NCBI RefSeq assembly: GCF_002813295.1
Contig: NZ_PHUE01000001.1
Location: forward strand, 4,909,517 to 4,973,516
From: Flavobacterium sp. 5
GTDB taxonomy: Bacteria > Bacteroidota > Bacteroidia > Flavobacteriales > Flavobacteriaceae
Direction of reading: 5' to 3'
DNA length: 64,000 nt
Shown in pieces: positions 38,110-62,923 of this stretch. Positions within the stretch are counted from its first letter, which is position 1. Every line of letters starts with the position of its first letter. The notes under the pieces are model-generated. The model was not told the DNA's origin, did no database searches, and saw nothing but the letters and a program-made list of their open reading frames with translations. The position numbers and the translations under genes were made by a program.

Positions 38110-38125
38110 TTTAAATACATTTAAG

Positions 38126-42118: not shown

Positions 42119-43729
42119 TTATTGTATGTAACCTGGATTTTGTTTCAAATTACTATTTCTCTCCAATTGAACCTTTGGTATTGGAAGAATCTTTCTAAAA
42201 GCACCAGCAGGATTAGCTTTGTTTGAAAACCAAGATTTTGTTGAAAATACTCCAAATCGTATTAAATCTTGTTTTCTATGCGCTTCTCCGACAAATTCCC
42301 AAGCTAGTTCATCTAAGAAACCTCCATACTGAATATCTGCTCCTCCTTCATAATCTGTAATTACTCCAGAATCATAAGTTCCGTATTTATAAACACTACC
42401 ACCTAAAAGTTTAGCTCCTGTAACAGTTGCTTTAGCTGGATTGGTGTTTTTAAAATCTCTTTGTCTGATTTCTGTTACAATTGCTGCTGCCCCATTAGCA
42501 TCTCCAGTTCTTAACAAACATTCTGCTTTAATCATCATGGCATCAGTTAATCTATAAAATGGAACATCATTACTTGTTTGTCCAATTTCACCAGTACCAA
42601 TTTCATATTTAACCATTCTATATCCTTCATTAGGTTCGCAACCATTTACATTAGTCAAATAATTAATATATTCAAATTGTTGCCCATTTTCTAACATTAT
42701 TGGTTCTCCTTTACTATCAAACTGTTTTCCTCCTAACCAAGAATCTTTTAATCGTTGATCATCTGGATCATAAGTATCTATAAATTGAGGTATTCCACCA
42801 GTTCCGTTCCAAGGTCCTCCAGCCAAATCATAAGTTCTCTGACTTTCGGCTGCTAATGTTTTGAATGGCCAATAATTTCCACCGGCTTTAATTTGATCAA
42901 AAGGAATAGAAAATATTTCTTCCGGTGAACTTTCATTTTTTATTTTAAAATTGTCCAAATAATTACTTGTCAAACTAAATTTACCGCTATTAATAACCTC
43001 ATTAACCTCAGCCAAGGCTTCGTTCCATTTTGGTGTTCCTATATACACTTCTGCATTTAAATATAATTTTGCTAAAGTCATTTTAACAGCCCACTTTGTA
43101 ATTTTCCCATAAGTGGCACTATTATTTTCTTCACTTAAATAAGGTAAAGCTCCTTTTAATTCACTTTCTACAAAATCATATACTTCTTTTCCTGTATTCT
43201 GTGTTGGCAAATATCCTTTTGGGAAATCATATTTGGTTACTATAGGAACATTTCTAAAATTATCTAATAATAAATAATAATAAATAGCTCTTAGTGCTCT
43301 CAATTCTTGAAAAATGGTTTCTTTATTCTCAATACCTGGTATTTGTTCTATTTGAAAAATTGCTTTATTAACACTATTTACACCATTATATAAATAAATC
43401 CAATTTCCATCCGCATGAGGAAGCGGAGCCTCATAAGTGTGTTGATGCATTGTGATGTAATAATCTCCCCATCCAATACCATTTCGTTGTGGTGTTACCA
43501 TTAAATCTGATGATTCTTCATACAAGCAAAATGCTGCATCCCAACCCCAATAAACATCTCTAAATGAGGTATAAGCTGGTGCTATAAGACTAGTCAAATC
43601 TTCTGCTGTAAATTTAGTATTCTCTGCAAGGACTTTATCATAAACATTCTCGTCCAAATTTGTACATCCTGCTCCTAAAAATAGTAAGCTCGAAGCAAGT
43701 ATTTTATATACTATGTTTTTATTTTTCAT
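42119..43729 (-). CDS. RagB/SusD family nutrient-binding lipoprotein
   Basis: A 536-residue lipoprotein with lipobox LFLGAGC followed by TNLDENVYDKVL, the SusD start pattern. Hallmarks include QELRALRAIYYYLLLDNFRNVPIVTKY, AVKMTLAKLYLNAEVY, YRLTDAMMIKAECLLRTG and the C-terminal FLDELAWEFVGEAHRKQDLIRFGVF. It should form a surface lid on the SusC protein encoded 11 bases upstream. The ligand is unknown from sequence. Its position at the end of a run of GH127, peptidase and hydroxyproline genes points to a glycopeptide ligand (inference). Confidence 0.93.
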   Translation of the reverse strand: MKNKNIVYKILASSLLFLGAGCTNLDENVYDKVLAENTKFTAEDLTSLIAPAYTSFRDVYWGWDAAFCLYEESSDLMVTPQRNGIGWGDYYITMHQHTYEAPLPHADGNWIYLYNGVNSVNKAIFQIEQIPGIENKETIFQELRALRAIYYYLLLDNFRNVPIVTKYDFPKGYLPTQNTGKEVYDFVESELKGALPYLSEENNSATYGKITKWAVKMTLAKLYLNAEVYIGTPKWNEALAEVNEVINSGKFSLTSNYLDNFKIKNESSPEEIFSIPFDQIKAGGNYWPFKTLAAESQRTYDLAGGPWNGTGGIPQFIDTYDPDDQRLKDSWLGGKQFDSKGEPIMLENGQQFEYINYLTNVNGCEPNEGYRMVKYEIGTGEIGQTSNDVPFYRLTDAMMIKAECLLRTGDANGAAAIVTEIRQRDFKNTNPAKATVTGAKLLGGSVYKYGTYDSGVITDYEGGADIQYGGFLDELAWEFVGEAHRKQDLIRFGVFSTKSWFSNKANPAGAFRKILPIPKVQLERNSNLKQNPGYIQ

Positions 43730-43740
43730 TTTGATTTAAT

Positions 43741-46731
43741 TTAAAAAGTTACATTTAATCCTAGGGTTAAACCTCTAGTACTTGGATATTTATCTCTGTT
43801 ATCCATACCTTGAGACAATGGATCCTCTCTTTTTATTTCTGGATCTAAACCTTTGTATTTTGTAAATGTGGCTAAGTTATTTCCAGACACATACAATCGC
43901 ATCGCGCTTAAAAACTTAAATGGCTTAACATCAAAATTATAAGATAAGGTTACGTTATCAACCTTTACATAATCACCTTGCTCAATATAATAGCTCACAT
44001 AGGTTTGATTGTAACTTAATACCGCATTATCATACACTTTATCGTATGCACTGTCCAACATATTATAAGCAATTGTAGGATTCTCGTAAAACATACGTTG
44101 CGTATTTAGTATCTGAAAATCAAAAGCTCCTGTTAATACAACACTTAAATCAAATTTTTTGTAACTAAAAGTATTGGTCCAACCTGCATAATATTGCGGA
44201 ACACCATTGCCTAAATATTGCATATTGGCATCATTATACATAGCAGTAGTAAGCGTTTTTCTTGTACCATCTGGCAATTCTACAATCCATTTTCCATCAT
44301 TAGTAATATCTACCGATTTTAATCCCCAAAAATTACCTATTGATTGTCCCACTTCTAGTCTATGAGTTGTAAATGAAATAGGGTCTCCTGTGTTTCCCAC
44401 ATTCAAATAATCTCCTTCAATTTTATATAAATCATTAGAAAGACTTGTCAGTTCATTTTTATTGTGTGAAAAAGTCATAGAAGAGTTCCAAACAAAATTC
44501 TCCGTTTTGACAGGAATTGTATTAAGAAGAATCTCAAATCCTTTATTTTCCATTTTACCAACGTTAGCAGTCATACCAGTCGCTAAATAAGGCGGAGTTG
44601 GTACATTATAATTAAATAACATATCACTAGTTTTTTTGCTATAGACATCAAAACTTCCGCTTATTCTATTATCCAAAAATCCAAAATCAAGACCAATATT
44701 TACCTCTGTTGTTTTCTCCCAGCGCAAATCAGGGTTAGGATTTCTTGTTGGCTGTAATCCCTTTACCCATTTTCCATCATTAAAAAAATAACCATCATAT
44801 TCATACAATGTTTTAGACATATAAGATTCAGTAGGAATAACTCCTGTTACTCCATAACCTGCTCTCAATTTTAAAGCGTTTACAGCAGTAACGTCTTCTA
44901 AAAAAGACTCTTTATTTATACTCCATCCTGCAGAAACAGCTGGAAAATTACCCCATTGGTAATTGGCACCAAATTTAGAAGAACCTTCTCTCCTAATACT
45001 AAATAACAAATCGTATTTACTATTAAAATTATAGTTAACTCTACCAAAAAATCCTATTAATGTACTATCATCTTTATAACTTCCCATTCTTGCTTTTCCA
45101 TCAGTCAAAGCATTTCCTGCAAGTAAATTATTATAAGAAAAAGCATCTGTAGGGAAATCATAATTACTAGCCGAAAAACCTTGATTTAGTATATATTGAT
45201 AACTATACCCCCCTAATACTGTAAATTCGTGCTTATCAAAAATTTTATGGTATTTGGACGTTATTTCTACATAATCACTATCTGTAGTTCCTGTATCTCT
45301 AGAAGCCACTCCATTTCTCTTATTTATAGTATTTGAATAATGCTTTTTGGTTTCAGCATATCCATTTAAACCTGTGTTTTTATTTTTTGAAAGTTGTGTA
45401 CCTACATTCCACCCTGGTAATAAATCAAAAGTTATATTAGCAGTAAATCTTTGCCAAGTACTGTTCCTGTCTTGTTTTGTTTCGTTCATAATAGCTACAG
45501 GATTATAATATTGAAATTTACCCGTATCCTCATTATAAGTTCCATCTGAATTATATACAGGAGCCGTAGGGTTTCTTATCATCGCCTGTCTGTAAGCATA
45601 AGCTGCTGTTCCTTCTGAAAGACCCATATTTTGTGTACCATTTAGTAAGCTTAAGTTAATTTTCAATTTATCATTAAACATAGTATGATTCACATCAAAT
45701 GAAAAACGGTACTCTTTATTAAATGTGTTATTAAAAACGCCTGTTTCGTTTACATAATTAAGATTTACGATATAATTTGTTTTAGCATTTCCTCCTTTTA
45801 AAGCTAAATTATGATTTTGAGCAAATCCGCTTCCTGATATTTCATCTAACCAATCTGTACTAGCTCCACCATCTGTAAAAGGAATTGAGAATCCTTCAGC
45901 ACGTAAACTTCTTTGTTGACCTGCATCTAAAAATTTAGCCTTATTAGCAAAATTGTTTACTGTAGCAAATGTTGAATAGGTAATAGTTGGTTCCATTTCT
46001 TTATTTATCGTTTTTGTAGTAATAAGAATTACTCCATTGGCTCCTCTTGTTCCATAAATTGCAGCAGCCGAAGCATCCTTCAAAACATCGATTGAAGCAA
46101 TTTCATTTGGAGCAACCGTATTAAGGCTTCCAGGTACACCATTAATTAAGACCAGAGGACCATTATCTCCCATTATGGTAGAAAATCCACGCAATGTAAT
46201 ATTTGAGGATGAACCCGGATCTCCTGAACCGTTAGTGATTGTCAAACCTGCCACTTTACCTTTAATAAGATCGGAAGCATCTCTAATATTTCCCTTAATA
46301 AAATCTTTTTCTTTTATACTAGCAATTGCACTAGTAACTCTTGATTTTTTTTGCGTACCGTAACCTACGACAACTACATCTGCTAATTGCTCAGTGTCAC
46401 TCACCAGAAAGACATCAATTTTGCTTTTATTTGCAATTGCTACTTCCTTAGTTTTAAATCCTATATAAGTAAAAAGTAAATTAGACTTTTCATCTTTAAG
46501 GACAATCTCAAATTTTCCATCAAAATCGGACACTACAGAATTAGAAATATTCTTTTCTGTAATTGTCACCCCGGAAAGAGGTATTCCATTGTTATCTTTT
46601 ATGGTACCCTGGATTTTTTTTTGCGCAAATGAGGTGAGAAAAGTTAGAAATAAAAAAATGGTTAATCCCATTTTTCCCTTCCAAAATTTACTCTCAAAAA
46701 TTTGCATTGCTGAAAGGTTGGTAAAATTCAT
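43741..46731 (-). CDS. SusC/RagA family TonB-linked outer-membrane transporter
   Basis: A 996-residue protein with signal segment MGLTIFLFLTFLTSFAQ, a carboxypeptidase-regulatory-like domain (KIQGTIKDNNGIPLSGVTI), a TonB-box/plug region (VVVVGYGTQKKSRVTSAI, VAGLTITNGSGDPGSS, and ASIDVLKDASAAAIYGTRG) and a beta barrel ending in GLTLGLNVTF. It imports ligands bound by its SusD partner. The start at 46731 leaves a 20-residue pre-signal region; Met9 (46707) or Met21 (46671) are alternatives. There is no STN domain, so regulation is not by anti-sigma signalling through this receptor. A terminator at 47058-47105 separates it from the upstream M61 gene, so it has its own promoter. Confidence 0.93.
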   Translation of the reverse strand: MNFTNLSAMQIFESKFWKGKMGLTIFLFLTFLTSFAQKKIQGTIKDNNGIPLSGVTITEKNISNSVVSDFDGKFEIVLKDEKSNLLFTYIGFKTKEVAIANKSKIDVFLVSDTEQLADVVVVGYGTQKKSRVTSAIASIKEKDFIKGNIRDASDLIKGKVAGLTITNGSGDPGSSSNITLRGFSTIMGDNGPLVLINGVPGSLNTVAPNEIASIDVLKDASAAAIYGTRGANGVILITTKTINKEMEPTITYSTFATVNNFANKAKFLDAGQQRSLRAEGFSIPFTDGGASTDWLDEISGSGFAQNHNLALKGGNAKTNYIVNLNYVNETGVFNNTFNKEYRFSFDVNHTMFNDKLKINLSLLNGTQNMGLSEGTAAYAYRQAMIRNPTAPVYNSDGTYNEDTGKFQYYNPVAIMNETKQDRNSTWQRFTANITFDLLPGWNVGTQLSKNKNTGLNGYAETKKHYSNTINKRNGVASRDTGTTDSDYVEITSKYHKIFDKHEFTVLGGYSYQYILNQGFSASNYDFPTDAFSYNNLLAGNALTDGKARMGSYKDDSTLIGFFGRVNYNFNSKYDLLFSIRREGSSKFGANYQWGNFPAVSAGWSINKESFLEDVTAVNALKLRAGYGVTGVIPTESYMSKTLYEYDGYFFNDGKWVKGLQPTRNPNPDLRWEKTTEVNIGLDFGFLDNRISGSFDVYSKKTSDMLFNYNVPTPPYLATGMTANVGKMENKGFEILLNTIPVKTENFVWNSSMTFSHNKNELTSLSNDLYKIEGDYLNVGNTGDPISFTTHRLEVGQSIGNFWGLKSVDITNDGKWIVELPDGTRKTLTTAMYNDANMQYLGNGVPQYYAGWTNTFSYKKFDLSVVLTGAFDFQILNTQRMFYENPTIAYNMLDSAYDKVYDNAVLSYNQTYVSYYIEQGDYVKVDNVTLSYNFDVKPFKFLSAMRLYVSGNNLATFTKYKGLDPEIKREDPLSQGMDNRDKYPSTRGLTLGLNVTF

Positions 46732-46778
46732 AGCTTTTGTTTTTGGTTATGGTTAAAAATTAATTCTCTTTGTTAATG

Positions 46779-46796
46779 CACAATTAATCAATTGTG
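46779..46796. promoter_or_regulatory. Inverted repeat in the susC leader
   Basis: CACAATT and AATTGTG flank a 4-base centre, 48-65 bases upstream of the susC start. It could be a protein-binding site or a small leader hairpin. There is no T tail, so it is not a terminator. Function unproven. Confidence 0.4.
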
Positions 46797-47057
46797 TGAT
46801 TTAAACACTTGTAAAATTAAATTTTAATCACAATAACAAAGACCAACAATTTATCCTAAACCAATAGTATATTATCCTTTTATTGCTTTATTTGATGCAA
46901 ATTCGAATAAATTAAATACTACTAAAAAAAATAATGTTAATTGTATAGTAATAATACAGACTTATAAACATTATCACTAAAAAAACGCAACAACAGTAAA
47001 GAAACACAACTCTCAAAAAACCTTAAATTACAGTATGTTATATAAAACATAAGAGGC

Positions 47058-47105
47058 AAAAAAAAAAAAAAAAACATCACATCTTATTAAAAATAATCTG
47101 TGATG
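47058..47105 (-). terminator. Terminator after the M61 peptidase gene
   Basis: On the minus strand CATCACA ... TGTGATG (7-base outer stem, with an additional ATTATT/AATAAG inner pairing) is followed directly by 17 T residues. It ends the transcript of the catabolic and peptidase genes and separates it from the SusCD pair. Confidence 0.82.
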
Positions 47106-47201
47106 GTCTGTCATATTTTTTAATCCAATACTTATAAATTCAAAGGCATTCATTTAATTCAAAGATCTAAATTCATTGCTTTTACATACGATAAATACAA
47201 A

Positions 47202-48785
47202 TCATTTATTCAACCATGAATAGAAAACTTTTTGTTGCGATTCATTTTTTGTATCCAAAAATTGAAAGGAATATTTTTTGGATTTAGAATCGTAATCAAC
47301 TTGTTCTTTCAATCTTAATCCTGCATAAGATAAGTAGGCATTATAATCAATTTCTTTGGTAGTATACACATATTCAAACTCTTTGGCTAATGAAATTCTG
47401 GCTGTAGTCTCGCAGGCTTGTTGAAATTCAGCATCTGTAAATCCACGCTGCATTTTTTTGTAATACTGCCAATACAAAAGTTGCATAACATCATCTAAAG
47501 ATTTTTTATTTTCTGTTGCCTTGCGAATAGCAAAGTCAAGAACAAGACCAACTGCAGGTCCTTTGTCATAATAAGAAATAGCTTTATTCGCATTCTCTCC
47601 TTGTTTTCCAAAAGGTCCATCACTCCATGTCTCAAAACTAGACTGTGTTAGTGATTGATAATTTCTGCCTGGACTGTTCTCAAAAGCATTAATACTACTT
47701 TCAAAATTATTAAATAACGTTTGTTCATTGATAAGTCCTGCTCTTTTTACAATTAAATATTCATAATAGACAGATAATCCTTCGCTTACCCAAAGTAGGT
47801 TTGTTTTGTTTCCTTTATCATAATCAAAAGGTCCTAGTTCGAAAGGTCTTATTCTTTTTACATTATAATGGTGAAAATATTCGTGAGCTAAAAAATTCAT
47901 CATCGTCGTCATAGTATCAGGATTGTCTAACCCATTACCATCAAAACTTACAGTCGTATTATTTAAATGTTCTATACCTCCCTGCCCTGGACCGATTCCA
48001 ATAAATGTATATTCTTTATACGGAATATCACCAATTACAGCAACGGCAGATTCTACCACTTTTTTTAAATTACTCATAAAAGTTACTTTATCAAAATTGC
48101 CTAATTTATATCCAACAAATCGATGTTCAATACCTTTTACTTTAAAAGATGGCAACTCTTCTAAATCTCCAATTAGTATTGGACAATCATACAGAATATC
48201 AAAATCAGAGGCATAAAATTCAGTTTTACTTTCTTTTATCGATTCTAATCCTGTTGCAATTTTCATTCCCTCTTTCATTCCTGAAATTTTCACAGAAACT
48301 GGTATATTCAAATTTTCATTTATATATACAAACAAACTATTTGGAATGATATACGCATGTGTGGTATCTAAAAAACTATTGGCAACAAATTGTTTATCTG
48401 CTTTTACATCATAACTCAATGTGAATGGTCTGTTCTTTGTTACATTAATTTGCCATGTATTTTCATTAGCCTTCGTTACAGCTAAATCTTTATTGTCGTT
48501 TTTTGCTACAAAATTTTCTACCATTTTGCTATAATTCATCATTTGATAATAGCCTGGCATCCAGTTTGGCATTTTAAAATCGATAGTTTCTTCTTTCCAA
48601 CCAGAACAATTCAATTCAACATGAAAATAATGACTTTCTGGATTTGGCATCGAAACAGTATATTGCAAAACAGGATTTACTGATTGTGCTTGAACGTTAT
48701 TTGTTAATACACTCATTATATTCAATAGCAAAACAAACAGAAAAAAAATTCTGTTTGTTTTGTGTAAAAATGATAGCTTTTTCAT
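47202..48785 (-). CDS. M61 family metallopeptidase (glycyl-aminopeptidase type), PDZ domain missing
   Basis: A 527-residue exported protein with a signal peptide (FFLFVLLLNIMSVLTNNVQAQ). It has an N-terminal beta domain and a thermolysin-like catalytic domain with HEYFHHYNVKRIRP near residue 300 (HExxH zinc site) and WVSEGLSVYYEYL giving the third zinc ligand Glu. M61 enzymes usually continue about 100 residues further into a PDZ domain. This protein stops soon after the family's AGLRLKE position with only a short tail. M61 enzymes act as aminopeptidases with preference for small residues such as Gly or Ala. It lies 4 bases after the GH127 gene, so they are co-transcribed, and it is followed by a terminator. 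Confidence 0.88.
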   Translation of the reverse strand: MKKLSFLHKTNRIFFLFVLLLNIMSVLTNNVQAQSVNPVLQYTVSMPNPESHYFHVELNCSGWKEETIDFKMPNWMPGYYQMMNYSKMVENFVAKNDNKDLAVTKANENTWQINVTKNRPFTLSYDVKADKQFVANSFLDTTHAYIIPNSLFVYINENLNIPVSVKISGMKEGMKIATGLESIKESKTEFYASDFDILYDCPILIGDLEELPSFKVKGIEHRFVGYKLGNFDKVTFMSNLKKVVESAVAVIGDIPYKEYTFIGIGPGQGGIEHLNNTTVSFDGNGLDNPDTMTTMMNFLAHEYFHHYNVKRIRPFELGPFDYDKGNKTNLLWVSEGLSVYYEYLIVKRAGLINEQTLFNNFESSINAFENSPGRNYQSLTQSSFETWSDGPFGKQGENANKAISYYDKGPAVGLVLDFAIRKATENKKSLDDVMQLLYWQYYKKMQRGFTDAEFQQACETTARISLAKEFEYVYTTKEIDYNAYLSYAGLRLKEQVDYDSKSKKYSFQFLDTKNESQQKVFYSWLNK

Positions 48786-48789
48786 AAAC

Positions 48790-51189: not shown

Positions 51190-51231
51190 TATAGAATACT
51201 TTTAATGATTAATTTTTAATGAAGTAGTAGC

Positions 51232-52641
51232 TTATTTATCTTTATTTACAAAATAGTAATAGATTGGAATTCCTAATAATACGATTGCCAATCCTGGTAA
51301 TGATGAGCTGTATTTATAAACCAATAACATAATACAAATACTCGAAGCTGCAATAATATAGATAGCTGGTAATACTGGATAACCTATTGCTTTATATGGT
51401 CTTTCTAATTCTGGTTTTGTTTTTCTTAATCTAAAAATCCCCGCAATAGTCAAGATATAAAAGATCAGAACAACAAATATTACATAATCCAATAGTTCAT
51501 TGTATTTTCCACTTAAACAAAGGACAGAAGCCCAAAGACATTGAATCCACAATGCTTTCTCTGGCACTCCATTTTTATTTAATTGCGCCATTTTTTTAAA
51601 GAAAAGACCATCTTTTGCCATTCTATGATACACACGTGCTCCAGAAAGTATTAATCCATTATTACATCCAAAAGTGGAGACCATTAACAAAATTGCAATA
51701 ATATAAGTTCCTGAACTTCCAAAAATATGCTGTGAAGCTACAACACCAACACGATCATTTTCGGCATGTGCGATCTCATCTAAAGTAAGAACCGATAAGT
51801 ACATCATATTAGTTGCAACATAAATAATAGTTACAATCAGCGTTCCAAGGAAAAGACTTCTACCAATATTTTTCGATGGGTTTTTTATTTCACGAGCAAT
51901 AAAAGTTACATTATTCCATGAATCACTGCTAAATAAACTCCCCACAAGACTAGCAGCAACTGCTCCCATTATAGCTAATCCTGAATAAGGAATAAGGGTA
52001 TTTCCTTCCATTTTATTTATTGAAAAACCTGTGCTCCAATTGGCTTTCCAAACATCTGCTTTTGCAGCCAATATGAAACCAAAAATGATAAGACCAAACA
52101 ATGCAATTAGTTTTACCATTGTAAAAACGGTTTGAATAATCTTTCCTTCTTTAACACCTCTAGTATTAACATACGTAAGAAAAACAACAAGAATAATAGA
52201 TGCTAATTGTGCAGCTGATATTTGCAAAAATCCTAAATCTAAAATTATATTTTTTTCACTCAAAGAAGGAAAAACATAAGCTGCAAACTTACTAAAAGCG
52301 ACACCTACAGCAGCGATAGAACCTGTTTGTATAACTGCAAAAAAACTCCATCCGTATAAAAAACCTGTAAGAGAATTGAAAGATTCTCTTAAATAAACAT
52401 ATTGCCCGCCTGCTTTGGGAAACATCCCACTTAATTCTCCATAACTTAAAGCCGCTGCAATCGTAAGGAAACCTGTAAGCAGCCAAACCAGTAATAATGC
52501 TCCCGCAGACCCTACATTACGAACAATATCTGCGCTCACAATAAAGATTCCTGAGCCAATCATAGAACCAGCAACAATCATTGTAGCGTCTAATAAACCT
52601 AATGACCGTTTAAATTTTTTTTTATTTGTTTTTGATTCCAT
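51232..52641 (-). CDS. APC superfamily amino acid permease
   Basis: A 469-residue inner-membrane protein with about 12 hydrophobic helices. The APC signatures are at the start: LGLLDATMIVAGSMIGSGIFIVSADI (the unwound TM1 with GSGIF), WLLTGFLTIAAALSYGELSGMFPKAGGQYVYLRE in TM2-3, and FAAYVFPSL. Later FSSDSWNNVTFIAREIKNPSKNIGRSLFLG is typical of the LAT/YfnA-like amino-acid permeases. In this context it is a good candidate for uptake of hydroxyproline, proline or a small peptide-derived amino acid (inference). It is upstream of GH127 on the same strand, 188 bases downstream of the oxidase gene, so it could have its own promoter. Confidence 0.9.
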   Translation of the reverse strand: MESKTNKKKFKRSLGLLDATMIVAGSMIGSGIFIVSADIVRNVGSAGALLLVWLLTGFLTIAAALSYGELSGMFPKAGGQYVYLRESFNSLTGFLYGWSFFAVIQTGSIAAVGVAFSKFAAYVFPSLSEKNIILDLGFLQISAAQLASIILVVFLTYVNTRGVKEGKIIQTVFTMVKLIALFGLIIFGFILAAKADVWKANWSTGFSINKMEGNTLIPYSGLAIMGAVAASLVGSLFSSDSWNNVTFIAREIKNPSKNIGRSLFLGTLIVTIIYVATNMMYLSVLTLDEIAHAENDRVGVVASQHIFGSSGTYIIAILLMVSTFGCNNGLILSGARVYHRMAKDGLFFKKMAQLNKNGVPEKALWIQCLWASVLCLSGKYNELLDYVIFVVLIFYILTIAGIFRLRKTKPELERPYKAIGYPVLPAIYIIAASSICIMLLVYKYSSSLPGLAIVLLGIPIYYYFVNKDK

Positions 52642-52642
52642 T

Positions 52643-52829: not shown

Positions 52830-54080
52830 TTAATTAAATCTCTCTACCTCAAATGCTTTAGTATCAATACTGGTCGGTTCTCTATTAATTAATTGAGAAA
52901 CTAATTTTCCCGAACCAGGACCAAGACTAAGCCCCATCATTGAATGTCCCGTTGCTATAACAACATTATTGTATTTTTTTATTTTTCCTATATAAGGCAA
53001 ACCATCTGCGGAGCAAGGTCTGTAACCGTACCAAATATCTTTTTCTGCCGGTTTTTCAATTTGAAATTCAGGTAAGAAATCTTTAACAGCATTCAATACT
53101 CCGTTGATTCTTTCATACTGTGGTTTCGCAGTAGTTGGAACCACTTCCATTGTTCCACCAAATCTAATTTTATTTCCATCCATTGGTGTAATCGCAACTC
53201 TTCCTTCGGCAAGAATCATCGGATGGTTCAGTTTATAATCTGAATCTTCTAAGGTTAATGAATATCCTCGACCAGGCATCAATGAAATCTTCGCACCTAC
53301 TAACTCAGCAATTTCTTTAGACCAAGATCCGGTAGCAATAACAACATCATCAGCTGGATATGCATTTTCTTTGGTAATCACTTTGGTAACTACACCATTA
53401 CTTTTTTCAAAAGATTGTACAGTTTCACCATATTTAAATTCTACTCCTTTTGCTAATAGTAGTTTTTTAAGTCCGTCCATTAATTTGTCTGGATAAACAT
53501 GAGAATCACAATTAAATTTTACAGCTCCAATCGCATTAATTTTTGTTTGAGATTCCAAAGCCTGTAACTCTTCGTAATTCAACAAGCTAACGTCAAGTCC
53601 TAATTCTTTTGCTTTTTCGACAGTGTGATGTGCGTGTTCACCCACTTTTTCTGTTTGAAAAACTTCTAACATGCCTTTGTGTTCGTAACCAAAATTAAAA
53701 TCAGGAATTTTGTTCCATTCTTCGAATTCGTGCTGGCTTAACAAAGAAATATCTCTAAGCGGAATTGCCGATTTAATAACATTTTTATTTGTAGCACTTT
53801 TTGCGAAATTTAATCCCCAATCTATCAACGCTTTATTAAAGGAAGGCTTTACATAAAATGGACTCTTCGAATTGAACATCCATTTGAATCCCTGCCAAAT
53901 AATTCCTGGCGCAGCCAATGGTATAAAGTGACTTGGACAAACATAACCGGCATTACCGTATGAACAATTATCTTTAAAATTATCCTTATCGATAACCGTT
54001 ACTTTACAACCACTTTGTTGTAAATAAAAAGCAGAACTAAGTCCAATTATTCCACCACCTATTACTACTACATTTTTCAT
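52830..54080 (-). CDS. FAD-dependent D-amino acid oxidase/dehydrogenase, probable D-hydroxyproline dehydrogenase
   Basis: A 416-residue cytoplasmic or membrane-associated flavoprotein of the DAO/DadA family. The Rossmann dinucleotide motif is at the N-terminus (VVIGGGIIGLSSAFYL), then VIDKDNFKDNCSYGNAGYVCPSH (the SyaNAG-type loop of DadA proteins), a central DDVVIATGSWS, and the C-terminal DIWYGYRPCSADGLPYIG and GHSMMGLSLGPGSGKLV. DadA-like enzymes deaminate D-amino acids. In hydroxyproline pathways one such enzyme oxidises cis-4-hydroxy-D-proline to 1-pyrroline-4-hydroxy-2-carboxylate. Because the epimerase, deaminase and dehydrogenase of this route are encoded upstream in the same run, that is the likely substrate. 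Its electron acceptor is unknown. The gap to the upstream DUF885 gene is 21 bases. Confidence 0.85.
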   Translation of the reverse strand: MKNVVVIGGGIIGLSSAFYLQQSGCKVTVIDKDNFKDNCSYGNAGYVCPSHFIPLAAPGIIWQGFKWMFNSKSPFYVKPSFNKALIDWGLNFAKSATNKNVIKSAIPLRDISLLSQHEFEEWNKIPDFNFGYEHKGMLEVFQTEKVGEHAHHTVEKAKELGLDVSLLNYEELQALESQTKINAIGAVKFNCDSHVYPDKLMDGLKKLLLAKGVEFKYGETVQSFEKSNGVVTKVITKENAYPADDVVIATGSWSKEIAELVGAKISLMPGRGYSLTLEDSDYKLNHPMILAEGRVAITPMDGNKIRFGGTMEVVPTTAKPQYERINGVLNAVKDFLPEFQIEKPAEKDIWYGYRPCSADGLPYIGKIKKYNNVVIATGHSMMGLSLGPGSGKLVSQLINREPTSIDTKAFEVERFN

Positions 54081-54101
54081 ACGAAATTGTATATGATATT
54101 A

Positions 54102-55886
54102 TTAAAATTTATAAAATTTCCAGTTTGTTTTAAAATCCCGATCCAACTTCTGATTCGTTAAAATTGCTCTTAACAATTCGATTGGCATACTATTTTCGTG
54201 TAAAATAGCATCATGATATTCTTTGTAACTCATTTTTCCGGTAGTTACCATTTCATTTTTTAAAGCCATAAATTGTAAACCTCCAAGCATATATGCTATT
54301 TGATATAAAGGGCTATATCCGCCTTCAAAAGAACGACGTACTTCGCCTTCAGCATTGGCTCGTTCATGCCCAACTCTATCTACTAAAAAGTCGATACATT
54401 GTTGCGGAGTCCATTTTCCTAAATGATAATTTAAAGAGAAAATGATTCTGGCACAGCGATGCATACGCCAAAACAACATTCCGATTTTGTCTTGTGGAGT
54501 TTGCGGAAATTTTAAATCCCACAACAACATTTCCCAATACAATGAATTTCCTTCAACCCAAAAAGGCGTATCAAAATGACGATACGCTTTGTAACGGTCA
54601 CGCATAAATTGTTGCAAATGATGCCCCGCAATTAATTCATGATGAATAGTCGCACGAGAGAAATTTGGATTATTTCCTCGCATACTCATCATTTTTTCGT
54701 CATAAGACATGGTGTTTGTTGGGTAGGAAATAATTAGAGATTCGCCTCCTAAAAAGAAAGGATTTACTTTTTGCGCTTCAGGCGACATCATATATACTCT
54801 CCAAGTTTCCTCTGCAATTGGAGGAATTGTCAAAAGATCGTTTTTCTTTAAAAAATCAACAGATTGATTGTATAAATCTAACATTGCCTGAGGCTGGTCA
54901 CCCGGCGCTACAAAAGATGTTTTTACTTTTTCCTGAGCCTCTTTCCAATTATCGCCAAATCCCATTTCTTTAGATGCTTTTAGCAATTCTGCATCGCACC
55001 AAGCAAATTCTTTATTGGCAATATTTACCAATTCTTCTGGCGAATAAGGAATAAATTCAGTTTCTAATTGACGAATTAACTCATCTCTACCAATTGGATT
55101 ACCAATAATTCCACTGCCATCATCTTTTTGGGTACTTATTTCTACTTTTTTAGATTTTAAAAGTGTACCATAATCAGCAAGAAGTTTGTCTAAGTCTTCG
55201 TAGGTTTTTGGAACCCACCAAGTAAATAATGGGTCATATCCGTTATAAAACTCAAAATACTTTTTGAGGATCTGTTGCAATGCTTTTGAATGCTGAACCG
55301 CAAAATTGGAAGATTCTTTATCTAAACCGTTTATTTTTTCTACGGTTTTGATTTGCTCTTTAATGGTTTTGCATAGCGAATTCATTTCTTTAGCGACAGC
55401 TTCACCATTCACTTTATTTCCTCTAAGACGTGGTTTTTCTAAAGCATAAATTTGATTTTCAAAAGGGAAATAAACTTTTATTTTGTTGTAAACCTTTTGC
55501 TGTTTAACCAACGCATCTTTTTCATTATTTAAATTTCTATTAAATAGAATATAATCAACTTTGCCATTAATGTTCATGGTATCAAAATCTAGTGCTTTTA
55601 GCGTGTTTTGATATTGGCTTATTAATGTTAAAAGTCGTTCTCTTCTTTCTGGAGTATTATAATCGCTTCTTTCAAAATATGTTCCGTAAGTATCAGCAGT
55701 ACTAGCAACAGAATAAAATCTGATAATACTCCCTTTGTCAGCTTCATAATGAACCATTGTATTGTTCACTTCGCTTGTTTGTTCGTATAGTCCAAGATTT
55801 GAAGTTTGCGCAAGAGCATTTATTGGCAGCATCATTGCTACATTTAGAAGAAATAAAATTTGAATCTTACTGCTAATATTACCCAT
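54102..55886 (-). CDS. DUF885 family exported metallopeptidase-like protein
   Basis: A 594-residue protein with signal peptide (IQILFLLNVAMMLPINALAQ). It matches the DUF885 family, largely helical proteins related to gluzincin peptidases. The active-site-like motif is IHHELIAGHHLQQF near residue 415 (HExxxGHHxQ), followed about 30-40 residues later by WVEGNSLYWEMLLWDL, which supplies the third-ligand Glu region. The C-terminal LLRAILTNQ segment is also typical. Substrate unknown; peptides are the natural guess. It sits between the S9 peptidase and the hydroxyproline oxidase, 55 and 21 bases away, so it is part of the same transcript and probably works in the periplasm on peptides entering through the SusC pore. 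Confidence 0.85.
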   Translation of the reverse strand: MGNISSKIQILFLLNVAMMLPINALAQTSNLGLYEQTSEVNNTMVHYEADKGSIIRFYSVASTADTYGTYFERSDYNTPERRERLLTLISQYQNTLKALDFDTMNINGKVDYILFNRNLNNEKDALVKQQKVYNKIKVYFPFENQIYALEKPRLRGNKVNGEAVAKEMNSLCKTIKEQIKTVEKINGLDKESSNFAVQHSKALQQILKKYFEFYNGYDPLFTWWVPKTYEDLDKLLADYGTLLKSKKVEISTQKDDGSGIIGNPIGRDELIRQLETEFIPYSPEELVNIANKEFAWCDAELLKASKEMGFGDNWKEAQEKVKTSFVAPGDQPQAMLDLYNQSVDFLKKNDLLTIPPIAEETWRVYMMSPEAQKVNPFFLGGESLIISYPTNTMSYDEKMMSMRGNNPNFSRATIHHELIAGHHLQQFMRDRYKAYRHFDTPFWVEGNSLYWEMLLWDLKFPQTPQDKIGMLFWRMHRCARIIFSLNYHLGKWTPQQCIDFLVDRVGHERANAEGEVRRSFEGGYSPLYQIAYMLGGLQFMALKNEMVTTGKMSYKEYHDAILHENSMPIELLRAILTNQKLDRDFKTNWKFYKF

Positions 55887-55941
55887 AAATATTTTTTTTA
55901 GTGTTTACAAAACTGTTTCGAACCTTTAGAAAATTATAGTA

Positions 55942-58236: not shown

Positions 58237-58299
58237 ACTTATCTGGAAAAGGGAACCTTCATTTATATTAATATTATAAGTAACCTGCAATAAATCTGA

Positions 58300-59310
58300 C
58301 TACAACACCTGAAATCCATGAGCGTATGGATCATCTTCCTCATCAATTATTATTGTGTTATAACCATACACTTTTGCCCATCCTTGAATACTCGGTACAA
58401 TTGCTTTAATATCACCGATTGATGTTTCTTCTTCAATTCGTCCAACGAACTTACTTCCGATATAACTTTCATGGATGAATTCTTCTCCCATTTTAAGCAA
58501 TCCTTTTGCATGTAATTGTGCTATTCTTGCCGAAGTTCCTGTACCACAAGGAGATCTATCGATTGCTTTATCTCCATAAAAAACGGCATTTCTACCTGAT
58601 GACGTTGGATCAATTGGAGAACCAGTCCATAACATATGACTTACATCACGAATCGTATCGTTTTCCGGATGAATGAACAAATCAGGATACTTTTCGTTTA
58701 TACTTTTTCTAACTACCTGACTGTACTGAACAATTTTACTTGCGGTAAAATCCTGAACTCCTGAGAAATTCTTCTGTGGATCTACAATTGCATAATAGTT
58801 TCCTCCGTAGGCAACATCAAAAACTATTTCACCTAATTCTGGACAATCAATCGTTAAATTCTCAGCGGCTAAATACGATTTTACGTTGGTTAATTTAACC
58901 CACTCTACTTTTTTATTAACCTGCTTGTATTCAATTTTTACGAGTCCTGCAGGAGCTTCCATGTTTATTCTTCCGGCAACTTTTGGAGTAATTAATCCTT
59001 CTTCTATTGCAATGGTGATCGTACCAATAGTTCCGTGACCACACATTGGCAAACAGCCTGATGTTTCGATAAATAAAATACCAAAATCATTTTCAGGATT
59101 ACTTGGCGGAAATAAAATACTTCCGCTCATCATATCATGTCCGCGAGGTTCAAACATCAATCCTTTGCGAATCCAATCGTATTCGTTTAAGAAATGTTGT
59201 CTTTTTTCGCTCATGTTTGCTCCAATCAAATTTGGACCACCACCAGCTACAACTCTAACAGGATTTCCGCAAGTATGTGCATCTACGCAAAAAAAAGTTT
59301 TTCTAGCCAT
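58300..59310 (-). CDS. 4-hydroxyproline 2-epimerase (proline racemase family)
   Basis: A 336-residue cytoplasmic enzyme that interconverts trans-4-hydroxy-L-proline and cis-4-hydroxy-D-proline with two catalytic cysteines. Both are present: LPMCGHGTIG (Cys near 90) and DRSPCGTGTSAR (Cys near 255). This distinguishes it from trans-3-hydroxyproline dehydratases, which have Thr in the second position. The opening FFCVDAHTCGNPVRVV (CGNPVR) and the substrate-loop EPRGHDMMSG are typical of hydroxyproline epimerases rather than proline racemases. The start codon overlaps the stop of the upstream aldehyde dehydrogenase by one base (TAATG), so the two are translationally coupled. The first pathway step is LhpA/HypA-like in other bacteria. 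Confidence 0.93.
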   Translation of the reverse strand: MARKTFFCVDAHTCGNPVRVVAGGGPNLIGANMSEKRQHFLNEYDWIRKGLMFEPRGHDMMSGSILFPPSNPENDFGILFIETSGCLPMCGHGTIGTITIAIEEGLITPKVAGRINMEAPAGLVKIEYKQVNKKVEWVKLTNVKSYLAAENLTIDCPELGEIVFDVAYGGNYYAIVDPQKNFSGVQDFTASKIVQYSQVVRKSINEKYPDLFIHPENDTIRDVSHMLWTGSPIDPTSSGRNAVFYGDKAIDRSPCGTGTSARIAQLHAKGLLKMGEEFIHESYIGSKFVGRIEEETSIGDIKAIVPSIQGWAKVYGYNTIIIDEEDDPYAHGFQVL

Positions 59311-60896
59311 TATGAAATTGCGGAATTAGTTTTACTATTATTTACTAATCGAGAAATTCCGAGAGGATTTTCATCTTGAAGCGCTTCAGGCAACTGAGCA
59401 TTAGGCCAGTTTTGATAACTAAAAGGTCTAACCCAACGTTTGATAGCATCAATTCCTACTGCCGTAAATCGTGAGTCGGAAGAAGATGGATACGGTCCGC
59501 CGTGTACCATTGCAGGGCAAACTTCAACACCAGTAGGCATTCCGTTAAAAATAATTCTTCCAACTCGATTTCCTAAAGCATCAACTACCTCTCCAAAATT
59601 TCCTAATTCGTTGTCTTCTGCTAATAATGTCCCTGTTAACTGCCCTTCTAATTCATTAATAATAGCAACTAACTCGGTTTCATTTTCACATTGAACAACA
59701 ATTGAAAAAGGTCCAAAAACCTCTTTGTGCAAAACAGTATTTTTCAAAAATTCTTTTCCAGATACTGCTAATATTTTTTGCGAAGCGAAATTAGGCTTAT
59801 CATTTCCATCATAAACAGCAACTACTTCTACTCCATTTTGAGAACTCAATGCCTCATTATTTGTCACATAATTTTTATGAATGGATGGATTCAACATACA
59901 AATTGGATCAATTTTTAAAATCTCACTGGCCAATTGATCCGTAAATGTATTCAAATCATCATTCTTAACTCCAAGTATCAATCCAGGATTCGTACAAAAC
60001 TGACCTGCACCAAGCGTTACAGAACCAGCACAGGCACTCGCCCACTTGCTTGAATTTTGTTTTAATGCTTCCGGTAAAATCACAACAGGATTTATACTTC
60101 CCATTTCGGCAAAAACCGGAATTGGTTCAGGACGTTGTGCGGCTAAGTCATACAATGCACGACCTCCTTTTATACTTCCAGTAAATCCTACTGCTTTTAC
60201 CAAAGGATCTTGAACTAATTGCACTCCTACTTCAATACCACTACTATTCAAATTAGAAAAAACTCCTTCTGGCATATTGGTTTTTTGAGCTGCTTTTATA
60301 ACTGCCGAAGCAACCATTTCGCTAGTACCAGCATGCATTGGGTGACTTTTTACAATAACCGGACATCCCGAAGCTAATGCAGAAGCCGTATCACCACCTG
60401 CTGTAGAATAAGCAAAAGGGAAATTACTGGAACCAAAAACAACAACAGTTCCTAATGGTCGCATCATTTTACGAATATCAACTTTAGGCAATGGTTGTCT
60501 GTCTGGAATTGCGGTATCAATTGTAGCTTCTACCCAAGAGCCATCTGCAACTAAATCTGCAAAAGCATTAAGTTGACCAATAGTTCTACCTCTTTCTCCT
60601 TCGGCTCTTCCTCTTGGCAAACCCGATTCCTGACAATATACCTCCAACAAGCTATCGCCCAAAGCCAATATTTCATCAGCAATTGTTCTTAAAAACTGTG
60701 CTTTTTCTTTACCTGTACATTTCTGAAAAGATAAAAATGCTTTATTAGCTATAGCTGTCGCCAATTTAATCTCATCAGCAGTCGCCTCAGTAATTTGCCA
60801 AGGATTTTCGACATTGAGTTGCGGATTAAAAGTTTTGAATATTTTATCTCCACTTGCCAACAACTGACTTCCTATATAATTTTTTCCAGTAATCAT
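59310..60896 (-). CDS. Alpha-ketoglutarate semialdehyde dehydrogenase (aldehyde dehydrogenase family)
   Basis: A 528-residue NAD(P)-dependent enzyme of the aldehyde dehydrogenase superfamily that oxidises 2,5-dioxopentanoate to 2-oxoglutarate, the last step of hydroxyproline catabolism. Visible features are a cofactor region GTVVVFGSSNFPFAYSTAGGD and CPVIVKSHPMHAG, VGFTGSIKGGRAL, the general base Glu in FAEMGSINPV (near 263) and the nucleophile Cys in GAGQFCTNPG (near 297). Length and the FCTNPG form match the KGSADH group tied to hydroxyproline or glucarate pathways rather than the general ALDH forms. It lies 70 bases downstream of the deaminase gene and overlaps the epimerase start (TAATG). 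Confidence 0.9.
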   Translation of the reverse strand: MITGKNYIGSQLLASGDKIFKTFNPQLNVENPWQITEATADEIKLATAIANKAFLSFQKCTGKEKAQFLRTIADEILALGDSLLEVYCQESGLPRGRAEGERGRTIGQLNAFADLVADGSWVEATIDTAIPDRQPLPKVDIRKMMRPLGTVVVFGSSNFPFAYSTAGGDTASALASGCPVIVKSHPMHAGTSEMVASAVIKAAQKTNMPEGVFSNLNSSGIEVGVQLVQDPLVKAVGFTGSIKGGRALYDLAAQRPEPIPVFAEMGSINPVVILPEALKQNSSKWASACAGSVTLGAGQFCTNPGLILGVKNDDLNTFTDQLASEILKIDPICMLNPSIHKNYVTNNEALSSQNGVEVVAVYDGNDKPNFASQKILAVSGKEFLKNTVLHKEVFGPFSIVVQCENETELVAIINELEGQLTGTLLAEDNELGNFGEVVDALGNRVGRIIFNGMPTGVEVCPAMVHGGPYPSSSDSRFTAVGIDAIKRWVRPFSYQNWPNAQLPEALQDENPLGISRLVNNSKTNSAIS

Positions 60897-60966
60897 TTTT
60901 CTTCTTTATTGTTTGATTGGGTAATTTATAAGATTGAAAATTAATTTCAAAATCGTAATCTAAAAT

Positions 60967-61881
60967 TTATAGACTTTTATAGTCTGGAAGTGTTGGTCTA
61001 GTTTTTAATGAACTATTAATGATATCCAAAACTCTTTCTCTTTCTGCTCCCATCAATGGAATTCTAGGTGCACGTACGTATTCACTTCCTAATCCTGCTC
61101 CAACTTCAGCTAACTTAATGTTTTGAACTAATTGAGCATTAATATCCAATTCTAATAAAGGTAAAAACCAACGGTAGATAGTTAATGCTTCTTGAATTCT
61201 TCCTGCTTTAGCTAATTTATAGATAGCAACAGTTTCTGCTGGAAAAGCATCTACTAATCCACCAACCCATCCATCAGCACCCATCAAAAGACTTTCTAAT
61301 CCTAAAGTATCAACTCCGGTCATAACTTTCAATCTGCTACCAAATCTATTAATGATTCTGGTTACATTAGAAATATCTCTTGTTGACTCTTTTACCGCTT
61401 GAATATTATCTAATTTTAAAAGTTCTTCAAACATATCCAAAGTAACTTCGATTTTATAATCCACTGGGTTATTATAAATCATGATTGGCAAAGAAGTACT
61501 TTTAGCAACTTCAGTAAAATACTGAACAGTTTCATAATCTGTTGCTTTATAACGCATTGGAGGTAACATCATTAGACCTTTTGCACCATTAAGTTCTGCC
61601 ACCTTAGCAGCCTCAATAGCACCACGAGTTGTTTGTTCAGCAATGTTCATGATAACAGGAACTTTTCCGTCAACAATACGTACTGTTTCTAAAATCAGCT
61701 CTTGCTTTTCTTCTTCTAAAAGTGTACTTGCTTCCCCTAAGGTACCACCAAGTATAACTCCTTCTATACCAGCATCTAATTGAGCATCTAGATTTTTCTC
61801 AAACATTTTAAAATCTAATTTATCATCAGCTGTAAAATTTGTGGTAACAGCTGGCATTACCCCTTTCCATTGAATATTCAT
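60967..61881 (-). CDS. DHDPS family protein, probable 1-pyrroline-4-hydroxy-2-carboxylate deaminase
   Basis: A 304-residue (beta/alpha)8 aldolase-fold protein of the dihydrodipicolinate synthase/N-acetylneuraminate lyase family. The Schiff-base Lys is in AVKESTRD (near 162) and the catalytic Tyr in MIYNNPVDY (near 136); GGTLGEASTL is the GGT/SGT-E substrate loop. This family is functionally broad, but in hydroxyproline operons such a protein (LhpC/HypD-type) deaminates and dehydrates 1-pyrroline-4-hydroxy-2-carboxylate to 2,5-dioxopentanoate. Clustering with the epimerase, oxidase and semialdehyde dehydrogenase supports that specific role over lysine synthesis. It is first in the minus-strand run, with a promoter-like site and palindrome upstream and the AraC gene divergent. 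Confidence 0.88.
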   Translation of the reverse strand: MNIQWKGVMPAVTTNFTADDKLDFKMFEKNLDAQLDAGIEGVILGGTLGEASTLLEEEKQELILETVRIVDGKVPVIMNIAEQTTRGAIEAAKVAELNGAKGLMMLPPMRYKATDYETVQYFTEVAKSTSLPIMIYNNPVDYKIEVTLDMFEELLKLDNIQAVKESTRDISNVTRIINRFGSRLKVMTGVDTLGLESLLMGADGWVGGLVDAFPAETVAIYKLAKAGRIQEALTIYRWFLPLLELDINAQLVQNIKLAEVGAGLGSEYVRAPRIPLMGAERERVLDIINSSLKTRPTLPDYKSL

Positions 61882-61912
61882 AATGATATTTTTTTTTATT
61901 TATTTAATAGTT

Positions 61913-61956
61913 CAAAGATATTAAGTCAACCAAAAAAAAATAATAACGGTTGTTAT
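61913..61956 (-). promoter_or_regulatory. Probable activator-dependent promoter and operator of the hydroxyproline operon
   Basis: On the minus strand TATCTTTG (61920-61913) is a perfect match to the -7 element TAnnTTTG, about 32 bases before the deaminase start. No TTG occurs at the normal 19-base distance. The place where it would be is covered on its far side by a palindrome, ATAAC-GGTT-GTTAT at 61943-61956. A missing -33 element next to a palindrome suits activation by the divergent AraC regulator. AraC family sites are often direct repeats, so the palindrome may instead belong to another factor. Confidence 0.5.
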
Positions 61957-62068
61957 CTAAAACTAATACAATATTATCTCATTTGAAGCATTATGTCAAA
62001 AAGTAGATTAATTTTAATCCATCATTTATTTAATTTTATATCTTTCCAAAAAATTCAAAACAAATACC

Positions 62069-62923
62069 ATGAAAGTTTTTCCATTTAAAATACCAAAGTC
62101 AAGTGAAGAAGCATTTATTTATCAGGAAGACCGTGAATATATTTTTTATGATAAATACCATCAACATGAGGAAATTCAGATTAGTTATATAAAAAAAGGA
62201 GAAGGTACTGTTTTAGTCGGTGATATGATTTCGGAATATAAAGAAGGAGATATACTTATAGTAGGAAGCAATTTGCCGCACGTTTTTAAAAGTGATATAT
62301 CCGAAAGCAAAAAGAAATCTGTAATGCTTACCATTTTTTTTACAAAAAATTCATTTGGAAAAAACTTTTTCAACTTACCTGAATTGCACAGTATAGAGCC
62401 TTTTTTTGAAGCAATTAAAAATGGAATACGAATAAGAAATGCAAAGCCTTCCATAATAAAGAAGTTCGAAAAATTTAAAGACGCCGATAAATATGACCGC
62501 TTTATACTTTTCTTATACCTACTAAAAGCTTTTTGTCACGCAGAAAAAACACCTCTGTCTAATTATGTCTTTAATAAACCTTTTACAGATGCAGAAGGAA
62601 AAAGAATGCAAATGGTTTTTGATTTTGTGATGAATAACTACCAAAAAAATGTCACCTTAGATGAAGTTGCTCAAATTGCAACTATGACCAAAAATGCTTT
62701 TTGCAAATATTTTAAAACACGTACTAACAAAACTTTCTTTCAATTTTTAATCGAAATAAGAATTGAGCATGCCGCAAAACTACTTGTAAAAAACAAAGAA
62801 CTATCTGTTATTGAAATATCCGAAATGAGCGGATTTAATAACATTTCCAATTTCAATAGAAAATTCAAGGAAATAAAAAAGAAAACACCATTTGAATTTA
62901 AAAACTCACTTTCTGATTCCTAA
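62069..62923 (+). CDS. AraC family transcriptional regulator
   Basis: A 284-residue regulator. The N-terminal part is a cupin-type sensor (YHQHEEIQISYIKKGEGTVLVGD, then YKEGDILIVGSNLPHVF, both carrying metal/ligand-binding His positions). The C-terminal 100 residues are the double helix-turn-helix: VTLDEVAQIATMTKNAFCKYFKTRTNKTFFQFLIEIRIEHAAKLL, then SVIEISEMSGFNNISNFNRKFKEIKKKTPFEF. The second part matches the AraC signature. It is divergent from the hydroxyproline operon with a 187-base shared region, a standard arrangement for a local activator. Its inducer is likely hydroxyproline or a pathway intermediate (inference). Confidence 0.92.
   Translation: MKVFPFKIPKSSEEAFIYQEDREYIFYDKYHQHEEIQISYIKKGEGTVLVGDMISEYKEGDILIVGSNLPHVFKSDISESKKKSVMLTIFFTKNSFGKNFFNLPELHSIEPFFEAIKNGIRIRNAKPSIIKKFEKFKDADKYDRFILFLYLLKAFCHAEKTPLSNYVFNKPFTDAEGKRMQMVFDFVMNNYQKNVTLDEVAQIATMTKNAFCKYFKTRTNKTFFQFLIEIRIEHAAKLLVKNKELSVIEISEMSGFNNISNFNRKFKEIKKKTPFEFKNSLSDS

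Follow-up and report, generated by a model that had tools for sequence, protein, structure and literature searches.

A stretch of 64,000 nucleotides from Flavobacterium sp. 5 (NZ_PHUE01000001.1, positions 4,909,517 to 4,973,516; hereafter the window) contains the first half of a gene island whose probable role is the co-regulated use of arabinosylated hydroxyproline-rich glycoproteins (HRGPs) of the extensin type, from plants or green algae. The island joins genes for hydroxyproline (Hyp) catabolism to peptidases, beta-arabinofuranosidases and an adjacent SusC/SusD pair (SusCD). This coupling was proposed in an original prediction made from the window alone, and it is supported by recurrent synteny, by the near-perfect joint presence of SusD and a GH146-type gene, and by a shared promoter site. 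Each component belongs to a known type; the combination under one putative operator is, as far as we know, new.

Conservation of GH146, SusD and Hyp genes across genomes

In our family draw of 149 genomes, including that of the window (G000), an orthologue of the island SusD scoring above 400 bits was found in nine genomes (the window's included; the next best match scored 296 bits) and a GH146-type frame of 1,002-1,057 amino acids in ten. All nine SusD genomes are among the ten with GH146 (Fisher 1.3e-13, with genomes treated as independent, which they are not). Matches to the 4-hydroxyproline epimerase (4HypE) family are present in 86 genomes, 83 of them with at least 57% identity, and all ten GH146 genomes have 4HypE (hypergeometric 0.002 with the 83, kinship ignored). 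In seven of the ten, GH146 and 4HypE are no more than 25 kb apart: G000 (across contig ends), G127, G061, G094, G117, G100 and G143. G030 and G075 keep SusCD, AraC, GH146 and DUF5695 together, with the Hyp genes on other contigs, and the island genes of G144 are scattered. In G061 the SusC frames of the island are different ones (22-25%), and there is a full-length GH127 of its own (53%). In another family (f41), genome G286 has a run with GH146, DUF5695, SusC (26%) and a neighbouring 520-residue frame, M1, the DHDPS-family gene, an aldehyde dehydrogenase (ALDH), 4HypE and the DAO-family gene, as well as AraC (34%), DUF885, permease, S9 and a half-length GH43 match.

Joined loci are thus found in seven genera of two families (G094, G100, G117, G143, G061, the window's genus and G286), and in G436, G547, G559 and G505 GH146 and 4HypE are present far apart. 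A synteny search in other Bacteroidota had been suggested for GH127 with 4HypE and SusCD: 4HypE-linked loci do recur in seven genera, but the conserved arabinofuranosidase is the GH146-type enzyme encoded outside the window, not GH127.

The Hyp operon and the SusCD unit

The twelve genes originally noted have the claimed coordinates and strands in the open reading frame listing, profile matches agree with their families (Table 1), and catalytic motifs of 4HypE, GH127, M61, DUF885 and S9 were seen. The firmest assignment in the locus is 4HypE, which matches NF010578 with 587 bits (cut-off 376) and has both catalytic Cys motifs, MCGHG and SPCGTG. The DAO, DHDPS-type and ALDH genes belong to the expected superfamilies and lie in one operon with it; their specificity rests on the operon, because no equivalog among the matches listed exceeds its cut-off. 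A complete pathway from Hyp to 2-oxoglutarate had been claimed, and all four enzyme types are indeed present, the epimerase above a curated cut-off, but the other three are placed by family and operon. The S9 gene probably starts at an in-frame ATG rather than at the listed TTG at 58290.

These genes had been read as one tightly spaced 20-kb run on the minus strand. Gene content and strand agree, and spacing is tight from DHDPS to M61 (-1 to 188 bp) and between SusC and SusD (11 bp), but M61 and SusC are separated by 470 bp and a hairpin, which divide the Hyp operon (DHDPS to M61) from the SusCD unit. The consensus terminator scan did not list this hairpin, although it does list one after SusD; that scan (7 sites in the region and 5.6 in shuffles) and a sigma-70 promoter scan (66 and 61.6) were both uninformative. 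In two congeners, G197 and G190, the gap contains a similar inverted repeat and then, ahead of SusC, a stretch with strong conservation among all three genomes. Because of the 470-bp gap, the hairpin with its T run and this conserved stretch, SusCD is most likely transcribed separately from the Hyp operon, in two transcription units, and a single 20-kb operon is unlikely. G197 and G190 have the window genes from SusD to M1 at 75-93% identity and in the same order, GH127 excepted, so the arrangement is more than chance.

The island continues past the window

The last base of the window is also the last base of a single contig of 4,973,516 bases. The reading frame of the M1 peptidase gene runs on from the contig end to base 1, giving a protein of 557 amino acids with full-length matches in both congeners, so the contig is circular. 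The locus had been taken to end at 62923; the conserved island in fact extends for another 20.7 kb past the window, to contig base 20712, and totals about 42.6 kb. Most genes of the extension are kept in G197 and G190 at 74-88% identity; the 331-residue gene was absent from the fetched stretches of both, and DUF6055 from that of G190. Adjacent SusC and SusD genes and carbohydrate-active enzymes (GH127 in the window; GH146, GH43 and GH97 in the extension) conserved with SusCD are features that the island shares with SusCD polysaccharide utilization loci.

The 1,019-residue PF07944 protein of the extension was classed by its nearest PDB entries: its 728-residue part is nearer to GH146 than to GH127 structures, with 207 bits for 5opj (which we take to be BT0349), 127 for 8k7y (presumably Bll3HypBA1) and 68.5 for the best GH127 entry. 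The GH97 protein is nearest to the retaining alpha-galactosidase 3a24/5e1q (511 bits versus 204 for the best alpha-glucosidase), and in the alignment it retains the nucleophile Asp that is altered in 5e1q; the Ser residues of extensin bear alpha-galactose. An HExxH motif in each suggests that the DUF6055, 871-residue and 331-residue proteins are uncharacterized metallopeptidases. The DUF5695 protein, 85-91% identical to Flavobacterium-named proteins, is a candidate new enzyme family: a single-sequence search of PDB gave no solved relative, and a literature search only an unrelated mention. DUF5695 was near GH146 in 13 of the 17 fetched GH146 loci.

A promoter site shared by Hyp, SusCD and GH146 genes

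Visual comparison of the conserved blocks upstream of SusC and DHDPS shows GATAATATNNTATNNGTTTNNGATAA in both. This 26-bp pattern was drawn from those two sites, and a perfect match there proves nothing. Genome-wide, only one further match was found with up to two mismatches, at contig 20928-20953, 215 bp before GH146 and with a single mismatch. In G197 and G190 the SusC, DHDPS and GH146 promoters all have the site with 0-2 mismatches. A matrix trained on nine sites (two identical) from the window's genome, G197 and G190 was run on 12 stretches of nine other genomes, taking the six best matches in each. The highest score among 36 shuffles, which preserved single-base composition only, was 17.1 bits. 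Fourteen matches in other genera exceeded it, and all fourteen lie outside genes, in promoters, where they precede SusC (4), S9 (4), DHDPS/AraC (3), M1 (1), GH146 (1) and DUF6055 (1) frames. No match above the best shuffle was found with this matrix in G127 and G144; with a larger matrix, SusC of G144 has one site of 17.2 bits. In G075, where the Hyp genes and SusCD-GH146 are on different contigs, the site is present in both, 60 bp before DHDPS in the former.

Eight loci that have an AraC of at least 51% identity and lack the island SusCD or GH146 (L156, L158-L162, L166 and L171) also have the site in the DHDPS/AraC region, 56-62 bp before DHDPS in seven of them, and none was used for training. 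It was not found in L165 (AraC 43%), and L170 has an 18.5-bit match 56 bp ahead of a DHDPS frame that is just 30% identical. In L163, L164, L168 and L169, like these two Hyp-only loci from outside the genus, the fetched sequence contains no DHDPS promoter, and we withdrew the statement that the site is missing where the AraC is. On the simplest reading, the site is a candidate AraC operator, first of the Hyp operon and later shared with SusCD, glycosidase and peptidase promoters.

The GH127 of the window is probably a late addition

The GH127 protein matches PF07944 with 383 bits, and its motifs GEAF (316), ETC (333) and CACC (399) give the Cys3-Glu layout and the acid/base Glu of a GH127 catalytic domain. 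Its closest PDB entry is 6ex6 (753 bits), which we take to be BT3674, far above 3wkw (291 bits), presumably HypBA1. A Cys3-Glu zinc site has been described for GH127 and GH146 (PMC10850190), and the motif layout of the window's protein fits it. A role as aceric acid hydrolase was ruled out (NF049879, 490 bits versus a cut-off of 950).

The original prediction regarded this protein as a HypBA1-type enzyme, which agrees poorly with its being nearer to 6ex6 than to 3wkw, absent from the two nearest island carriers and apparently acquired. Lack of synteny in relatives had been named as grounds for refutation, and for GH127 itself this is what we found: neither G197 nor G190 has the gene between M61 and the permease, which rules it out as a conserved core of the locus. 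A close 4HypE is present in ten of the 61 genus genomes (the window's included) and a full-length GH127 in the window's genome only; the next best GH127 in the genus is 53% identical and lacks the C-terminal part. The window's genome also has a second, shorter GH127 (G000:C1:1895135-1897045), 51% identical to that of the window, without the F5/8 end and far from Hyp genes; similar matches of 49-53% occur in 11 of the 61 genus genomes sampled, the window's aside.

In a tree of the 80 best named matches, the window's GH127 groups with Flavitalea, Ilyomonas and Parafilimonas of the Chitinophagaceae (SH-aLRT, a branch support test, 99) on a long branch of 0.47; the wrong-frame sequences L118_y and L119_y were left out, and the wrong-frame L196_y, labelled as linked, was kept on a long, unreliable branch. 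The gene is probably a late addition to the island and was likely acquired by transfer. A metagenome protein 89% identical to it exists.

These features would fit a recent hitch-hiker, with another substrate, in what is otherwise an HRGP system: the 799-residue GH127 is missing from G197 and G190, groups with Chitinophagaceae and is nearest to an arabinogalactan enzyme. At the class level (395 genomes, 54 with a GH127 match, 34 of these examined, and at most two first-look candidates scored per genome), a GH127 copy of 65-69% was found in six genomes (G320, G408, G485, G583, G505 and G483), and in none of the five class-level genomes having both was this copy within 10 kb of 4HypE, which likewise favours a hitch-hiker. 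Sixteen of the 34 genomes have 4HypE, and eight of these (G507, G485, G408, G320, G380, G583, G242 and G566) have a GH127- or GH146-type frame no more than 10 kb away from it; in G320, G408 and G485 this neighbouring frame belongs to a second GH127 (51-53%).

We nevertheless consider a hitch-hiker unlikely. Around the 80 best named GH127 genes (63-70% identical), 4HypE was found in 17 loci within the fetched 10 kb or less on each side, against a chance expectation of about 0.35 given one gene per 5 Mb; 4HypE or DHDPS was found in 20, and at least one island Hyp, permease or peptidase gene in 42. The 17 loci are not independent, because they include ten from Mucilaginibacter, two from Pedobacter and two from Sphingobacteriales metagenome-assembled genomes, besides Ilyomonas, Arcicella and Flectobacillus. 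On the tree, the 4HypE-linkage label changes 14 times, at least 11 by starred branches, versus 19.7 for shuffled labels, with one labelled row being a bad extraction. Arcicella and Flectobacillus both have the genes in the order 4HypE-permease-GH127, with a permease 71-76% identical to that of the window. The one other full-length orthologue among 12 family genomes searched with GH127, that of G061 (53%), also lies beside Hyp genes. Finally, GH127 is fused to the island-type enzyme elsewhere: proteins of 1,568 amino acids in L070, L080 and L232 combine GH127 in residues 1-804 (63-64%) with the island GH146 from residue 805 (67-68%). L070 and L232 may be one organism. The 26-bp operator is not that of the named GH127 loci, because only one of the 80 has a site of at least 20 bits. 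In Pedobacter sp. V48 (L085, 16546 onward), a SusC/SusD pair related to that of the window (47%) starts about 4 kb after its GH127.

Alternative substrates and evidence against an HRGP island

Several observations weigh against an HRGP island. Of the 86 family genomes that match the 4HypE family, 76 have no GH146, so the presence of Hyp catabolism by itself does not indicate that glycoproteins are used. The promoter site is primarily one of the Hyp operon, because Hyp-only congeners have it too; with up to three mismatches it gives 17 matches genome-wide versus 7 for the reversed pattern, M1 and the window's other SusC among them. The Hyp operon of G144 has no site, that of G030 a weak one of 10 bits, and three sites of G127 before DUF6055, SusC and S9 (14.9-15.5 bits) fall under the best shuffle. 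DUF5695 is a domain of no known function, and GH127 is missing from close relatives and nearer to an arabinogalactan-active enzyme.

The first of these counts, together with prolyl peptidases that suit collagen, could be explained if the Hyp operon and peptidases were for peptides from collagen or gelatin, with SusCD and glycosidases as neighbours that have nothing to do with them. The shared promoter site, the joint presence of SusD and GH146 and a joining repeated in seven genera make this highly improbable. Arabinogalactan-proteins (AGPs), with Hyp-linked type II arabinogalactan, are another candidate target in place of extensin: GH127 and GH43 would trim the arabinose of galactan side chains, and Hyp would come from the AGP backbone. 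The closeness of the window's GH127 to 6ex6 agrees with this, and GH43 and GH97 fit it as well. We find it quite unlikely, as the conserved enzyme is GH146, with GH127 dispensable in relatives, and none of the island proteins scanned matches a Pfam family of galactanase type (such as GH16, GH30 or GH35). This case is weakened by Bll3HypBA1, a beta-1,3 enzyme of AGPs that also belongs to GH146 (PMC10850190).

Proposed route and relation to known systems

Extensins and related HRGPs are hard-to-degrade proteins in plant and green-algal walls, and to our knowledge the use of their protein part by environmental bacteria is hardly known. The island proposes a full route from glycoprotein to central metabolism, with a candidate operator, a regulator and testable enzymes (GH146, GH127 and DUF5695). 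Its substrate, inducer and enzyme specificities are inferred from sequence, and the cellular locations given here are those suggested by visible N-terminal signals. Secreted metalloprotease-like proteins and SusCD would capture and import glycopeptides. Judging by nearest relatives, GH43 would then remove the alpha-arabinose cap in the periplasm, GH146, perhaps aided by the added GH127, would remove the beta-arabinoses down to Hyp, and GH97 would remove alpha-galactose. Peptidases of X-Pro/Hyp type (DPP-IV-type S9, aminopeptidase P, M1, M61 and DUF885) would free Hyp, the permease would import it, and the epimerase, DAO, deaminase and ALDH would convert it to 2-oxoglutarate. The AraC protein would sense a cytosolic Hyp signal and turn on the island promoters through the 26-bp site, which is conserved; binding and ligand are our proposal. 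If this is true, a SusCD locus is under control of a backbone amino acid rather than a sugar.

The glycosidase steps follow the structure of Ara4-Hyp, Araf-alpha1,3-Araf-beta1,2-Araf-beta1,2-Araf-beta-Hyp, whose cap is taken by the GH43 enzyme HypAA, whereas enzymes of the HypBA1 type work on Ara-Hyp to Ara3-Hyp (PMC6085000). XeHypBA1 and Bll4HypBA1, GH146 enzymes in PMC10850190, act on Hyp-linked arabinosides (PMC6085000, PMC10850190), the latter taking Araf-beta1-Hyp (PMC10850190). More tentatively, the Hyp-responsive AraC regulon could represent a class of Bacteroidota locus not described before, a "glycoprotein utilization locus" that uses both the glycan and the Hyp backbone of HRGPs, with the operator of an ancestral Hyp operon shared with SusCD, GH146/S9 and peptidase promoters, the backbone amino acid and not sugar as inducer, and DUF5695 as a new HRGP-active enzyme family; we see this as possible without favouring it.

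The HypBA1/HypBA2/HypAA system of Bifidobacterium longum (GH127, GH121 and GH43) likewise takes beta-L-arabinofuranosides off extensin-type Hyp and has GH127/146 and GH43 in common with the island; it uses an ABC transporter where the island has SusCD, and the island adds peptidases and the route from Hyp to 2-oxoglutarate. SusCD polysaccharide utilization loci, such as the arabinogalactan loci of Bacteroides thetaiotaomicron with BT3674, share with the island the SusCD pair, co-localized exo-glycosidases and a linked regulator. Their regulators are typically hybrid two-component or anti-sigma systems, whereas that of the island is an AraC protein with a cupin domain, and the island apparently also consumes the amino acid of the polymer backbone. 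The known 4-hydroxyproline operon (4HypE, DAO, DHDPS-type deaminase and KGSADH) is represented in the island by all four enzyme types together, here joined to SusCD, peptidases and arabinofuranosidases under a common promoter site. The XeHypBA1/BA2/AA cluster of Xanthomonas euvesicatoria resembles the island in having GH43, GH146 (so called in PMC10850190) and a neighbouring prolyl oligopeptidase gene (PMC6085000); unlike in the island, this peptidase is a pseudogene, and the excerpted text of PMC6085000 mentions no TonB or Hyp catabolic genes. A Latescibacteria genome study infers extensin use from GH127 (PMC4454575). The original prediction knew of no described SusCD locus that combines removal of arabinose with Hyp catabolism, and among the open-licence papers listed by our literature searches none dealt with a SusCD locus joined to Hyp catabolism.

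Features and neighbouring genes

Table 1. Features of the island and related loci. Positions are those of the window unless a contig or locus is named.
Feature	Position	Strand	Basis or remark
Terminator-like hairpin and T run after SusD	42069..42091	-	consensus terminator scan
SusD-like outer-membrane lipoprotein	42119..43729	-	Pfam SusD_RagB
SusC-like TonB-linked porin	43741..46731	-	TIGR04056, 726 bits
Shared 26-bp site	46851..46876	-	119 bp ahead of SusC start codon
Terminator-like hairpin (CATCACA...TGTGATG and T run), M61/SusC gap	47075..47105	-	alignment and fold
M61 peptidase	47202..48785	-	HEYFHH; N-terminal signal visible
GH127 beta-L-arabinofuranosidase-like, 799 aa	48790..51189	-	F5/8-type C-terminus
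APC-type amino acid permease	51232..52641	-	
DAO-family FAD enzyme, candidate D-hydroxyproline dehydrogenase	52830..54080	-	
DUF885 putative metallopeptidase	54102..55886	-	HHELxxGHH
S9/DPP-IV-type peptidase, 764 aa	55942..58236	-	GTSAGG; ATG start
4-hydroxyproline epimerase (4HypE)	58300..59310	-	NF010578 above cut-off, both Cys motifs
ALDH, candidate 2-oxoglutarate-semialdehyde dehydrogenase	59310..60896	-	
DHDPS-family, candidate pyrroline-4-hydroxy-2-carboxylate deaminase	60967..61881	-	
Shared 26-bp site, DHDPS-AraC intergenic	61953..61978	-	71 bp ahead of DHDPS start codon
AraC-family regulator, cupin sensor domain	62069..62923	+	divergent
Weaker copy of 26-bp site	63030..63055	+	3 mismatches; 114 bp ahead of M1 gene
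M1 peptidase gene, first part	63170..64000	+	rest from contig base 1
S9/DPP-IV, then aminopeptidase P (M24)	contig, from base 868		
871-aa protein, type IX sorting tail	contig 4753-7368	+	HEGIH
DUF6055	contig 8041-9354	-	HEIGH
GH97	contig, after DUF6055	opposite to the 871-aa gene	
331-aa protein	contig 11561-12556	-	HEMGH
GH43 with F5/8 and LamG	contig, between 331-aa gene and DUF5695	opposite to the 871-aa gene	
DUF5695	contig 14871-17573	-	
1,019-aa PF07944 protein, GH146-type	contig, after DUF5695	opposite to the 871-aa gene	
GH127-GH146 fusion	L070 10013-, L080 9923-, L232 7161-		

A second SusCD pair lies elsewhere in the window, with genes for a fasciclin-domain protein and a BT_3987-N/DUF4859 protein after it (31677-39418, plus strand). 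Nothing corresponding to it was present in the stretches fetched for G197 and G190. The pair is preceded at 359 bp by a weaker version of the 26-bp site (31292-31317, plus strand; 3 mismatches, 20.6 bits) and may be a further member of the regulon. The window also encodes a giant type IX-secreted surface protein of 5,338 amino acids with DUF11 repeats and a CHU_C secretion tail (14280-30296, minus strand), followed by PorP/SprF and OmpA-type genes (13311-14228 and 11367-13298).

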